This document shows positions 9,170 to 57,400 of a stretch of 64,000 nt of DNA, piece by piece. The stretch covers positions 186,001-250,000 of the forward strand of contig MCGE01000008.1 of the NCBI GenBank assembly GCA_002105175.1. Reading direction: 5' to 3'. This DNA comes from Absidia repens (taxonomy: Eukaryota; Mucoromycota; Mucoromycetes; Mucorales; Cunninghamellaceae). Position 1 is the first letter of the stretch; the number at the start of each line of letters is the position of its first letter. The notes beneath the pieces were generated by a model that worked only from the letters and a program-made list of their open reading frames with translations, was not told the origin of the DNA and did not search any database. The position numbers and the translations under genes are program-made.

Positions 9170-10212
9170 CCTACTGGGTGTCAGGGGGCGTTGTTGAAGG
9201 GTGGTTTTTAATGAAACCAGACCCTTCCCTCCCGCCATTTCTTAACAGACTCAACTGACTCCCAGTTTGCGATCCTATTGTTCTTTATATTATACGCAGT
9301 ATTAAATAAATGAAAAATAGCGAGCTGGATATCCACCGTACAACCAGTATAGTGGAGATTACGCAGGCGGCTCAGTTTAGGTTGATTGATAGAAAGGGCA
9401 AAGCAGTAATAAAAGCACCTATCATATTAAGTGACCTAGAACTGCCAACCAGTCGCTAAGCATCAGGGAGTGGAGTAAGGCCATATTTGGTAGCAAGTGC
9501 TATAAGATTGCCATTCAGTTCCTGGGCATGTGTGGAATATTCATTGTGGATGAACTAGAAAACAAATGTTTGATAAGGTACTCGCACAACAACTACAATA
9601 GAAACATTAATCACTCCCCAATGTGTCACAACAGTGTTAAAAAAAAGGTATAGTTTATTGAAGCATATTGCTAACATGGGAATTTATGGGACAATCTATT
9701 GGAAGACATGTATATTTGAAAAATGATCAACACTAAAGGAGACAACTGTAAATTGGGAACTAATATGTTGTAGAATGAATGAAAAGAACTCAAGTGCTAT
9801 CTGTTACTAACGAACTGCAATAGTCAGTACTAATTAAAAGGATGATGGTGGTAAAAAAGCGATCTATTGCAGAAGAAATAATGAGACTAATAAGGCATAT
9901 TTCATTGAAAGAGGTAAATATAGGCATATTTTTATTCAGACGTAGATACAAACTATGGATAAATCAGTACTATACTAAGCTTATGAAGATTTCAAAAAGC
10001 CAACTAACGGTGGTTCTAATCCTGAATTCAAAATGAAAGGGTTTCCCCATACATCTTGTAATCCCTGTTCTGAAAATCCTTCTAAATTATTCCGGATACT
10101 AATCTAAGTCCACTATAACCTATAGGGGTCACAATTGTGAAGAATTAAAGAAAGAAAAAACAGAAGTAAAAAAAGTGTGAGTGCAAAAAAAATACGTCTG
10201 CGGGATTTAAAG
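9170..10212 (+). repeat. Interspersed repeat family, copy 1 (near full length)
   Basis: The copy opens with CTACTGGGTGTCAG next to an A-run and closes with TACGTCTGCGGGATTTAAAG. Its 3' part carries the conserved block (AAAATGAAAGGGTTTCCCC at about 10029, then CATCTTGTAATCCCTG) found in all nine copies of this window. The interior contains several TTTATTGAAGCAT-like modules. It holds no plausible coding sequence: the only frame over 60 codons (9842-10036) has no family motif and does not persist in other copies. Confidence 0.85.
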
Positions 10213-10788
10213 TTCTTTTTTTATCTGACCTCTTCTTGACACAGAAAAATAAGCTCGCATTATCGCTCACCTTCGGTTTGCAATTTTATTTATCTTTTTG
10301 GGGGATATAAAAAGGAAAGTCGCTCTTTATACATGAATATATATAAGCAACAAACGCTCTATCGACATAACATTGTTCTTTTTCACCTTTACCATCATAT
10401 TTTGCTACGAGGTAAAACGCCTTATCGACAAATAAAAAGAATATGTACCTTTAGCATTTTCTGTGAAACCAAAAAAAAAAAAAAAAAAAAAAACGTTCTT
10501 GCTGAATTGCACCATATTCGTAATTCACATTCATGGGATGAATTTGAAATAATACCGTCATTTTGTATCATATCATAAGCATTTTTATTTGCGTATTATA
10601 TAAAGTAATAACATCAATAAGAAATAGGGGAGAAAAAAATGTTACCATAGAAGGCAACATGGAAGGATATACAGGAATAGGGGAGGGCAAGGTTGTGCCA
10701 ATGGTAAAAATAAAAATAAAATGGGAAAACGTTGAAAATAAGAGGGGAAAGGGGCTGAAATATGCATCATTTGCGAATAACCCAGTTC
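10213..10788. other. Intergenic region, no gene seen
   Basis: AT-rich spacer between repeat copy 1 and the 3' end of the aspartic protease gene on the minus strand. It contains a poly(A) run at about 10470-10492. Short frames on + look fortuitous. Confidence 0.5.
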
Positions 10789-12512
10789 TTATTTGGATTC
10801 AGCGAAGCCAACACGGTCTTTGCCCAAATCATAAACACTATAGTACTTACGAAGGAAGACATCACCGACTAGAAAATCAAAAATAAAGAGGTTAACATGT
10901 TGCAAAATGTTTTTTCTTCAATATTACCGATCCACAGAGGCCCCAATGGAGGTGGGATATCCATTCTTTAAATAAAAAATAAACAATTAATTAATACAAT
11001 ATCATCACCACTTCTCTTTATTTGATAATTACCCCATAAAACCAGAAATACATTGGTTTTGGACAAACAATATATAATCCTTTCCTTCCAGACAAAACTC
11101 TTTGCCACCAAAAACGAAGCAGAATGTAGGCAAATTATTTACCCTGGCACAATTCACTGTGTATTGACCCATCCAGCTCCTGCTTGCACCAATCTTCTTG
11201 TTTATCATGGCTGCGACCGCGGTAGGGGCTATCAATAAGGAAGAGCCAGTATCGATGGCAGCACCTATAGATTCCAACCCGAGTGTTTCACCACTGATTT
11301 TAACATCGTCCATAGCCACTTCCCAGTATCCTTTGCGCTTGATGGGTATCCAGGTAATATCACCTTTGTAATGAGCCGGGTCCATGGCACCCAATACCAA
11401 TTCACCACCTTGATGTTTCATATCACTACCACTGTTTGCGTCATTGAGCCAAAAAGAAAAAATAGGTTCATCCACCAGCTTATTGTTGACAATTTGATAA
11501 AATGGTGGAACTACACGATTCACGGCTATCTCATCATACCCTAGTCCAAGAATACCATCAAAGCGTGCTAAAACAAAAGTAACGCCTGGTTCACTGATAG
11601 ATTCAGCAAATCCTTGGTCTTTGACTTTAATACCACCGATTTCAAATGTGTCCTACAAAAAAAAAAAAAAAGAAGAAAAGCGTTATAAGCCCAGTGAAAA
11701 GGGAAAAAAATAATTCATAAACGGAAGAAGAGATGACATTTACGTGATTGATGACACCTTGCAAAGAGCCAGTGCCATAGCGAATAGCAAATTCTGTACC
11801 ATTTTCCTTAAAAGTTTTGGATTGGTCAGCGTTGTATCTACGGTGCAAAAAACAAGCAATGGAGTTGCATCGTGTAGAAGGAACCCAAAGGTTGGAAGAG
11901 CCAGTATCAAGGACTACTGTGAAAAGCTGGGGAGGCGTGCCAATTCCAATTTCACCATAATACTATTTTTTTTTAAAAAAAAAGAAAAAGTCAAGGTTAC
12001 TATCGCAAACCAACAGCCATCTAGTTGTAATCCAGCTTATTGTGTTTCCACTTACTTGAGCATTCATATAATTAGAAATAGGAACGCCATGCTCCACGTT
12101 ACCGTCAGCTCCTACTTGAAAGGGCTCGAATTTAATGTCTTGGTCACTGACTCCGCCAAAATATTTCTGCGCCAAATATTCGCCTGTATGAGATAGTCGT
12201 TCCAAGATTTCGCCAGGTGCTTCTTCGGCTTTCTTGATAGCCACTCTACAAACACAAGGTGCACATAAAACATGTGAGTACAGATCGAAAATTAAACCCG
12301 TGTAGTTCCATTGTCATTTTGAAGGACCCCTCCTCTCTCTCCCGCCCCGCCCTACTTTTGCCTCCAACGTTCATCATGAATGTGCAATTTTTTTTTTCGC
12401 AAGTCATCCGACATGCCACATTTACAACATTCTATTTAACTTACCTTGCAATATCAGCACTAGATATAGTACATAAGGAAGCAAAAATAATAGATAAAGT
12501 GACAACCTTCAT
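10789..12512 (-). CDS. PEP4: Vacuolar aspartic protease (saccharopepsin/PEP4 type)
   Basis: Pepsin-family (A1) aspartyl protease with 404 residues, almost the length of yeast Pep4. Minus-strand exons are 12445-12512, 12056-12245, 11744-11962, 11033-11652, 10928-10965 and 10789-10868. A signal peptide (about residues 1-19, ending ISSA) is followed by a propeptide. The mature part starts around [18 protein letters not shown]. The two catalytic aspartates are Asp105 in DTGSSNLW and Asp293 in [10 protein letters not shown]. The spliced C-terminal [20 protein letters not shown] followed by [19 protein letters not shown] is characteristic of vacuolar rather than secreted members. The enzyme matures vacuolar hydrolases and degrades proteins in the lumen. 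A serine carboxypeptidase gene that could be its substrate lies at 60.0-62.3 kb, although the linkage may be fortuitous. Confidence 0.94.
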
Positions 12513-55870: not shown

Positions 55871-56599
55871 ATTTTTATGTGGTGGGTTGGTTTGGGAGGG
55901 TTCAGACCGCTGGTCCTACAGCGTCATCAATATGGTAATTTTATTCTCATTGCTACAGTAGTAATTATTCAACAACGCAGCATGGTTACTCCTTCCTCTT
56001 TTTACAGCAGTTGATATCGGACACATGATGATTATCTGTTCTCGGACAGTAACACTCATTATTCAATATCGGTAGAGTGACACAGAAAACTTCAATATTC
56101 AGTATCGACAGCACGGTGGTATTGAACCCAACATTTGAGACAACTTGACATCCGCTAGTGATCTCTTTTTTACTATAGAATAAGTATGTCGCTCATCATA
56201 GAATAGCATATCCTCTTTATTTGAATCAGTTTCCCATTATGACTATTATACAACAAGTCACTGAATATTACTACATTTATCCCCAACCCCACACTGCTAT
56301 GCATACCCCTAGTAGTATTGCCTAAGGTAGATATCATAATACTGTCCTTAAATTAGCTTGGTGCTAAAGCAGTTGTCATAATTTATTATCCACTCCTGAA
56401 TAAAATATTATGACCCAGGATCGGAACAAGATGACGATGCCGTTACCGGGGAAGCTCCTTCCACTCGGGCTTTCAGAGTGTTGATTTTTATACTTACCAG
56501 AACAAAAAAGCGACGCTCGATGAATTCCAACATATCGATATTGTGTGAAGAAGGAAAAGGCAGGGATAAGAAAGAAAAAGAGGGCTGGGTAAAAAGGGG
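55871..56599. other. Spacer between two repeat copies
   Basis: No gene was found. Two short similar stretches occur (CATTATTCAATATCGGTAGAG at about 56055 and AATATTCAGTATCGACAGCA at about 56093). Confidence 0.4.
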
Positions 56600-57400
56600 G
56601 AGCGGTTAGCGGTATGTTAAGTCAAATAAAGGCTATGGTATTTTATACAGAGGGTCACTATGTCTGCATCGCTTAGATATGCGAATTTCTATAAGAGACA
56701 TGGCCGAAACTATCATCAGCCTCAGTGATTCTAGGGGGGAAAGTAGTCATTGTGGGCGAACTAGAAAGCAGTTGTTTGATATCACAAGAGTAAAGCAGTT
56801 ACAATAGCAACTTTACTCACTAGTAAGTGGCTCAGATATAGATTGTAAAAAGTATATATTTTATTGGAGCATATTAAGTAAATACTAAACAAAATGAGCA
56901 GGGTACATTGTAACAAGGAATCTAATGGTGGTGGAATGAAGAAGACTAGAAGGAGATCTGAAGAATGGTCAGCACTAATCTCTAGCGACACGTAAAAAGA
57001 TGTTTGATAGGCCATACAAGTCATAAGACGGACCAAGTGATGTCTTTCATTAAAACAAAACAGTAGCTAGCAGTCTTACAAAAAGAATCATTGCAAAAAA
57101 CAAAAAAGAGACATATTTTATTGAGAATTGATGCAAATTATAATACATTAACACTAAACTAAGCTATGAAGGCGCCAAAAAGCCAAATAGTGATGGTTCT
57201 AAATCCTGAATCCAAATTGAATGGTTTCTCCATGCATGTTTATACTGCATTTTTCAAATGCCCCTTGTTTAAATTCTAATCCAAGTCCAAGATGATCATT
57301 ACCTCATGGAAGATGTTTTCAAAAAAAAAAAAAAAAAAAGAAAGAAAGACGAAGAAAAAAAAAATAGAATGGTGTAAAATTAATTAAAAATCATGGAGTG
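56600..57400 (+). repeat. Interspersed repeat family, copy 9 (diverged end)
   Basis: Shares GGCGAACTAGAAAGCAGTTG (about 56754), TTTTATTGGAGCATATTAAG (about 56858) and the degraded conserved block (ATTGAATGGTTTCTCCATGC, about 57217). The usual CACGTG...CGGGATTTAAA end is not preserved. Confidence 0.7.

Follow-up and report, generated by a model that had tools for sequence, protein, structure and literature searches.

The window analysed here, a stretch of 64,000 nucleotides from Absidia repens (contig MCGE01000008.1, positions 186,001 to 250,000 of the forward strand), carries copies of an interspersed repeat that share a short block, AAAATGAAAGGGTTTCCCC, and that seem to descend from a family of Helitrons. 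The block occurs at eight sites of the window at up to three mismatches (six on the plus strand and two on the minus strand, against 0.03 expected) and is followed by ATGCATCTTGTAATCCC in all eight copies (at most one mismatch). The sequence ACGTGnGCGGGATTTnAA gives eight matches at up to two mismatches (0.01 expected), seven of them in block copies and one elsewhere (27355). An earlier note on this DNA had counted at least nine copies sharing the block, and a profile built on the window's block copies also recognizes nine, the ninth, near 57.2 kb, with the block in decayed form (5/22 mismatches). The repeat had further been described as lying in both orientations, only between genes, over about 13% of the window and with no conserved open reading frame (ORF), and all of this agrees with the present data. 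Thus, matches to three profiles jointly span 8,350 of the 64,000 bases (13.05%), none of these intervals overlaps the 25 ORFs of at least 150 amino acids (shorter exons not being annotated), and the open frames of the 716-column consensus are all of 45 codons or fewer, for which reason a coding role for the repeat was rejected.

The origin of the repeat was approached through a longer motif, GGAGCTTTTGGAAATCTTTCGATTTACTGGGTGT, which is the reverse complement of a Helitron 3' end (...CACCCAGTAAATCGAAAGATTTCCAAAAGCTCCAGCGGAGCGCCAGAGCGTTTATT) and occurs genome-wide in 320 copies at up to two mismatches (163 plus and 157 minus; control, 0). Three of these copies lie on C1, spaced by 6,765 and 6,775 bp, and the DNA there, the locus L037, contains ORFs that match, in several overlapping frames, Helitron_like_N (E = 2.2e-61) and the PIF1 helicase (E = 5.1e-68), i.e., the pair of Rep (HUH) and PIF1-type helicase domains by which Helitrons are recognized. 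Among the best 120 matches listed, the helicase part shares 53% identity over 96% with a protein from Circinella minor and 46% over 94% with one from Absidia glauca. The genome yields 19 match rows to the PF14214 profile, four of them with open frames of more than 1,000 amino acids, and 14 control genomes yield none. Neither a reverse transcriptase nor a DDE domain was found among the five L037 proteins scanned, and no Helentron-type extra endonuclease domain in these five of the 15 L037 ORFs of at least 90 amino acids. This gene-bearing element contains the block together with ~100–250 bp around it. The block is located at 6240-6261 of L037, 447 bp past the helicase stop and 749 bp ahead of the 3' end, and it is present, with 1/22 mismatch each, in all four of the three-prime parts obtained from Rep-helicase loci (L037, L039 on C67, L040 on C27, and L042 on C51). 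The search for an autonomous partner sharing the block, which the earlier note had proposed, was in this way rewarded with Rep-helicase Helitrons such as L037. Adjoining its Helitron 3' end, L037 also carries four 117-bp repeats (6456-6929) with a GGGCCCCAAGGGGCC-like palindrome, relatives of which occur in different numbers in L040 and L042.

In L037, L040, and L042, exact head-to-tail junctions (GCGTTTATT/AATATATT) are found, in which the 3' end GCGTTTATT is directly followed by the 5' end AATATATTAAAA, an end-to-end arrangement that characterizes Helitrons. A 5'-end profile marks the junctions of these three loci and, in addition, two free 5' ends (L038 and L027). The flanks diverge after GTTTATT in L037, L039, L040, L036, L027, L016, and the window; moreover, in young copies the 3' end is preceded at 15 nt by a GCTCC-AGC-GGAGC hairpin (by reading), which is altered in L035 and L016, and L001 lacks the last part of the 3' end. 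The C67 Helitron sits within an older block-bearing copy, and its left flank, ...GGCATATTTTATT, and right flank, CAGATATAAATATAAAC, are collinear with uninterrupted copies, which provides one empty site. Both of the known 5' flanks end in TTTTATT, a T-rich insertion target as in Helitron2 and the FoHeli elements. At this empty site, the check for a target-site duplication (TSD) returned only an ambiguous TTTATT common to the target and the element end; since TTTATT closes the element too, a 6-bp duplication is indistinguishable from a required target sequence at C67. The head-to-tail junctions and the one empty site agree with rolling-circle transposition. Regarding the empty sites from which the earlier note had hoped to define the ends, one is available for the C67 Helitron, and the ends of window copies 1 to 8 are weakly supported. 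Several block-bearing Helitron types are nested, in both orientations, at L027 (C2:484.5-494.5 kb), including an ~860-bp internally deleted copy at 164-1024.

The window copies are connected with this partner both by direct comparison and by profiles. By blastn, L037 matches copy 9 at 57208-57363 (L037 6234-6392; 80% identity over 160 columns, E = 1e-29), copy 5 at 38593-38496 (L037 6165-6266; 78%, 3e-11), and copy 8 at 55540-55677 (L037 6114-6261; 72%, 5e-9). A profile seeded on eight window copies and iterated on earlier loci then matched the later-fetched L037, L039, L040, and L042 at E ≤ 1e-10. In turn, a 3'-end profile made from ten young ends recognized, as unseen targets, window 57433-57622 (E = 2.5e-6) and L016 (2.3e-17), and reached 2.7e-21 and 7e-35, respectively, after an iteration that included both targets, with no reversed matches in either case. 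Copy 9 (56768..57622, plus strand) ends in this Helitron 3' end (57431..57622, plus strand), which terminates in GCGTTTATT, and its decayed block (~57213) lies 409 bp inside from that end, oriented as in L037. Copy 9 therefore carries both the block and the Helitron 3' end, and it resembles the gene-bearing Helitron in its subterminal sequence as well as at its 3' end. In the L037-type copies, including copy 9, the block follows the Helitron orientation, and its distance to the 3' end ranges from 325 to 1088 bp. Subterminal homology appears to tie the remaining eight window copies to the Helitron, and their own left ends do so weakly, a profile of eight left ends reaching the Helitron end of L027 at E = 0.007 and that of L001 at 0.5.

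Six of these eight copies are on the plus strand: copy 1 (9123..10224; left-end motif at 9172, block at 10030-10048), copy 2 (16287..18027; left-end motif at 16332, block at 17073-17091), which has the longest right part (to ~18.0 kb), copy 4 (31734..32338; block at 32108-32126), copy 6 (44452..45523; block at 44970-44988), copy 7 (48573..49760; left-end motif at 48633, block at 49575-49593), and copy 8 (55112..56408; block at 55656-55674). The minus strand holds copy 3 (25871..27514; block at 26578-26560, left-end motif at 27461) and copy 5 (38304..39045; block at 38523-38505). Host genes of the window include those for a short-chain dehydrogenase with an MFE-2 hydratase part (5196-6290), the ribosomal protein L6e (12994-13710), and a uricase (21447-22199). 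The ribosomal protein L6 has its best named matches in Gongronella, Radiomyces, Hesseltinella, and Cunninghamella (76-79%), with a JGI protein at 94%, which would fit a host in the Mucorales.

The extent of the repeat was assessed from 55 copies (288 kb of sequence, with flanks of up to 4 kb at either side), at loci mostly picked for the exact block, which inflates similarity at the block but not its extension. Similarity is full at the block and, to the right, is seen in 93% of the copies at +100..+200, 42% at +200..+300, and 11–16% at +500..+1200, and to the left in 17% in the -900 bin, 3% at -1000, and none in the -1700 to -1200 bins. Collinear similarity spans ~-1000 to +300 around the block in 42% of 54 copies. 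Since similarity continues past it in this 42%, GCGGGATTTAAA is internal, and the proposal of the earlier note that the block and CACGTG-n-GCGGGATTTAAA form the ends had to be abandoned; on the plus strand, the block lies ~0.5–1 kb to the right of the copy starts that it listed. A role of GCGGGATTTAAA as an end, a pol III B box, or a primer site was likewise rejected, given its internal position and the lack of tRNA in the window. On the left, a TACTGGGTGTCAG-like motif (up to two mismatches) is found in the same orientation 737-1022 bp from the block at eight sites, the one at 31182 being doubtful, and 660 bp left of the block in L021; in L001, L023 (twice), and L027 it also appears inverted, 249-532 bp beyond the block on the right side. 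However, the motif comes close to chance level at up to two mismatches (30 sites vs 17 for the reversed pattern; 7 vs 2 at zero or one mismatch) and, thus, lone two-mismatch sites carry no weight. A transposon with terminal inverted repeats (TIRs) built on the inverted motif was rejected, the longer form of the motif being the Helitron 3' region. Copies vary by internal deletions and by an inverted arm, and therefore the fast-drifting interior previously noticed is in part a matter of rearrangement. The same arm contains, by reading, the AATAAA site that, along with a TATA-like site, had been considered as the mark of a long terminal repeat (LTR), a candidate that was rejected. At L003 1331-2409, two block copies stand tail to tail as a palindrome with arms 98% identical, a recent inverted duplication on an old background.

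In the 47.4-Mb genome, the 19-base block gives 4,825 matches at up to two mismatches (2,433 forward and 2,392 reverse), 1,754 of them exact, and none for the reversed control, which corresponds to about one copy per 10 kb. From these two counts, and assuming evenly spread mismatches, a divergence of ~5.7% per site and ~5,300 copies are obtained. Extrapolating the window mean of ~0.93 kb to the 4,825 copies, the repeat would occupy near 4.5 Mb, near a tenth of the genome. Runs of block orientation over megabases were rejected, since minus-strand copies had been omitted from the first listing and the strand totals are even. The exact 22-mer of the block has no match in IMG/VR contigs. Among 40 scored candidates, block-bearing units also form ~1.165-kb arrays on C31 (L035 2113-8498 and L036 1-749; C31:165.6-178.7 kb) and C10 (C10:528-539 kb), and smaller groups on C9 and C60. 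The units of L035 are 86-99% identical, with a TATA-like CTTTATATA located 284-291 bp beyond the block, and one of them is broken by a GGGTCAATC-rich stretch. As their units lack the Helitron end, these arrays look like internal expansion and not like head-to-tail Helitrons. In some copies, a TATA-like sequence was seen ~215-290 bp past the block (by reading). In L016, a stretch that reads like a tRNA-Leu gene in the alignment was noticed on the right of the block at 8159, within ~1.6 kb of it.

Conservation of the block was measured after setting aside, out of 86 profile matches, the 34 that had been picked for the exact block; 42 of the other 52 span the block, with 37/794 mismatches within it. 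Of the 42, 24 are of the window type (18 younger or other copies being set aside), nine of these 24 being the window copies, mostly picked for the block in the first place. In the 24, mismatches from the consensus amount to 23/454 (5.1%) in the block vs 948/5,485 (17.3%) in the flanks (Fisher p = 3.5e-14, with cells that are not independent), and the contrast between a stable block and a drifting interior stands to this extent. Between L037 and the diverged C51 element (L042), L037 6231-6310 is identical at 65/78 positions and the poly-A stretch at 14/16, and, apart from 6152-6191 (30/37), the remaining non-coding sequence outside the terminal repeats reaches ~30-70%. The nearest genome-wide relatives found for two window copies are 82% identical over 293 bp and 86% over 270 bp (40 scored of 2,726 and 3,331 candidates, respectively), from which a decay after insertion of 5-9% per copy may be estimated; since this estimate covers the 5% of the block, no selection after insertion is needed to account for it. 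Singleton counts (0.0118 per cell in the block and 0.007-0.014 in the flanks) were rejected as a test of such selection, because saturated and unsaturated columns are not comparable. A hairpin at the block was also rejected, with folding z from -0.9 to 1.2 in five of six cases and -3.5 in one (L035). As single-strand folding is unremarkable in these five and the decay data require no host selection, the block could be read as a site for a protein, probably kept while the elements were mobile. Its low divergence would fit a cis signal needed during that period.

Taken together, the repeats would be old, mostly non-autonomous and gene-less relics of a non-canonical Helitron family, and the block a cis-acting segment that mobile copies had to keep, a reading to which we assign a probability of roughly 0.8. 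The family is most likely new in sequence, known in kind, and non-canonical; titles and abstract openings listed in the literature searches gave no account of the block or of a Helitron family from this fungus. Helitron identity would explain why the repeat has no LTR, no clear TIR, and no clear TSD, as already remarked in the earlier note, whose label of unclassified gives way here to a Helitron assignment. Its suggestion of selection or a replication signal seems plausible in an altered form, for a subterminal rolling-circle segment with 5.1% vs 17.3% divergence. In the mechanism that can be proposed, the Rep-helicase encoded by the partner would nick at the element ends, the element would be copied as a circle and inserted after a TTTATT target, and internally deleted copies that keep the ends and the subterminal region would be carried along by the partner. 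The block would then act in cis from its place between the coding region and the 3' end, would be needed for movement, and could, e.g., be bound by the Rep-helicase or by a host factor, or serve in the control of transcription. A broader proposal, namely that it is an undescribed, orientation-independent Helitron cis site located between gene and 3' end, read by the Rep-helicase or by a recruited host factor, sufficient to spread thousands of gene-less copies and, given that diverged gene-bearing families keep it, general in rolling-circle transposition of these fungi, is tentative and less likely than not.

Several observations weigh against the Helitron reading. Both flanks were compared for a single insertion, with a joined query that lacked ~7 bases of the left flank, which were compared by reading. 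The classical Helitron ends (5' TC and 3' CTRR) were not seen, the ends here being 5' AATATATTAAAA and 3' GCGTTTATT, and no TIRs were found in L037 (the first 60 bases against the last 150 gave a score of 12, which 238 of 300 shuffles equalled or exceeded). In the window-type copies L035, L016, L026, and L008 (E < 1e-3), the block is inverted with respect to the nearest Helitron 3' end, and weaker matches place it inverted also in L029, L017, L021, and L028, at 547-1029 bp from that end across these eight loci. A strand-specific signal is unsupported for this reason. Fungal Helitrons with the gene inverted relative to the ends are described in PMC5148889, and by analogy such elements may account for the inverted block. 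Moreover, of eight left ends scored with the young-end profile, just one (at 16332 of the window, with 5.1 bits) exceeded the maximum reached by 1,600 shuffles (3.6), and the 5'-end profile recognized no 5' end for window-type copies. Finally, a second non-coding stretch, L037 6152-6191 (30/37 vs L042), is as conserved as the block stretch, and thus conservation extends beyond the block.

The changing orientation also suits the idea of a separate element, e.g., a short DNA transposon, inserted into or captured by an ancestral Helitron and now riding along. In its favour, the orientation of the block with respect to the Helitron 3' end varies by type, a recognisable Helitron end is missing from many window-type copies, and some copies show an inverted arm of the same region. 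However, the block occupies the same place in all four three-prime parts of Rep-helicase loci, including the diverged C51 element, neither a flanking duplication nor ends of its own were recognised, and copy 9 unites it with the Helitron 3' end, all of which makes a separate element improbable.

Slightly less probable still is that the host keeps the block after insertion, as a replication origin, a promoter, or a boundary element. The divergence of the block, 3.4 times below that of the flanks, its genome-wide density, and the TATA-like sequence that follows it in some copies would suit such a function. Nevertheless, ~5% decay since insertion together with older variation among source elements would suffice for the pattern, in view of the nearest pairs at 82% and 86%, and folding gives no signal in five of six cases. 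As for an LTR, SINE, or TIR element, the resemblance of the reverse complement of GCGGGATTTGAA to a tRNA T-arm (by reading), the TATA-like site and A-rich tracts, and the direct repeats ~1.15-1.18 kb apart in L001 and L027 count for little against a supposed end that is internal, a window with no tRNA or Rfam match, with neither LTRs nor a pol III-type start similar to tRNA, 5S, or 7SL, and a partner that encodes a Rep-helicase, and this class is very improbable.

On the Helitron reading, a repeat that makes up ~13% of the window acquires a family, and the genome holds four loci with a Rep frame of more than 1,000 amino acids. What guides the choice of DNA by Helitrons, beyond their extreme ends, is poorly understood. 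With its short length, its subterminal place, and its retention in diverged families, the block offers a defined sequence for transposition testing.

Among known systems, canonical Helitron1 elements share the Rep and PIF1 helicase and the hairpin 15 nt before the 3' end (in the young copies here) but differ in the 5' TC and 3' CTRR ends, which are absent here, and the observed insertion is not between A and T. The DINE-1 or HINE repeats of Drosophila and mites are non-autonomous Helentrons and, according to PMC4067079, they are likewise abundant non-coding interspersed repeats with a rolling-circle partner, a T-rich target, no target modification found, and tandem repeats in some copies. Unlike them, the Absidia family shows no TIR in the one element tested (L037), and it has a block of ~20 bases at a distance of 325-1088 bp from its 3' end, a 3' end GCGTTTATT, and a host from a different kingdom. 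Closer in host are the FoHeli elements, Helitron2-like elements of Fusarium oxysporum. As described in PMC5148889, they are also Rep-helicase elements of a fungus, with short non-autonomous forms and with 3' ends that are non-canonical and in part T-rich, and that study reports tandem copies in Metarhizium acridum and a gene orientation that is variable relative to the ends. They differ in their asymmetric TIRs and in ends of ATTTT or CTCCTGT and, moreover, their non-autonomous forms are of low copy number, in comparison with which the thousands of block copies in Absidia repens are notable.

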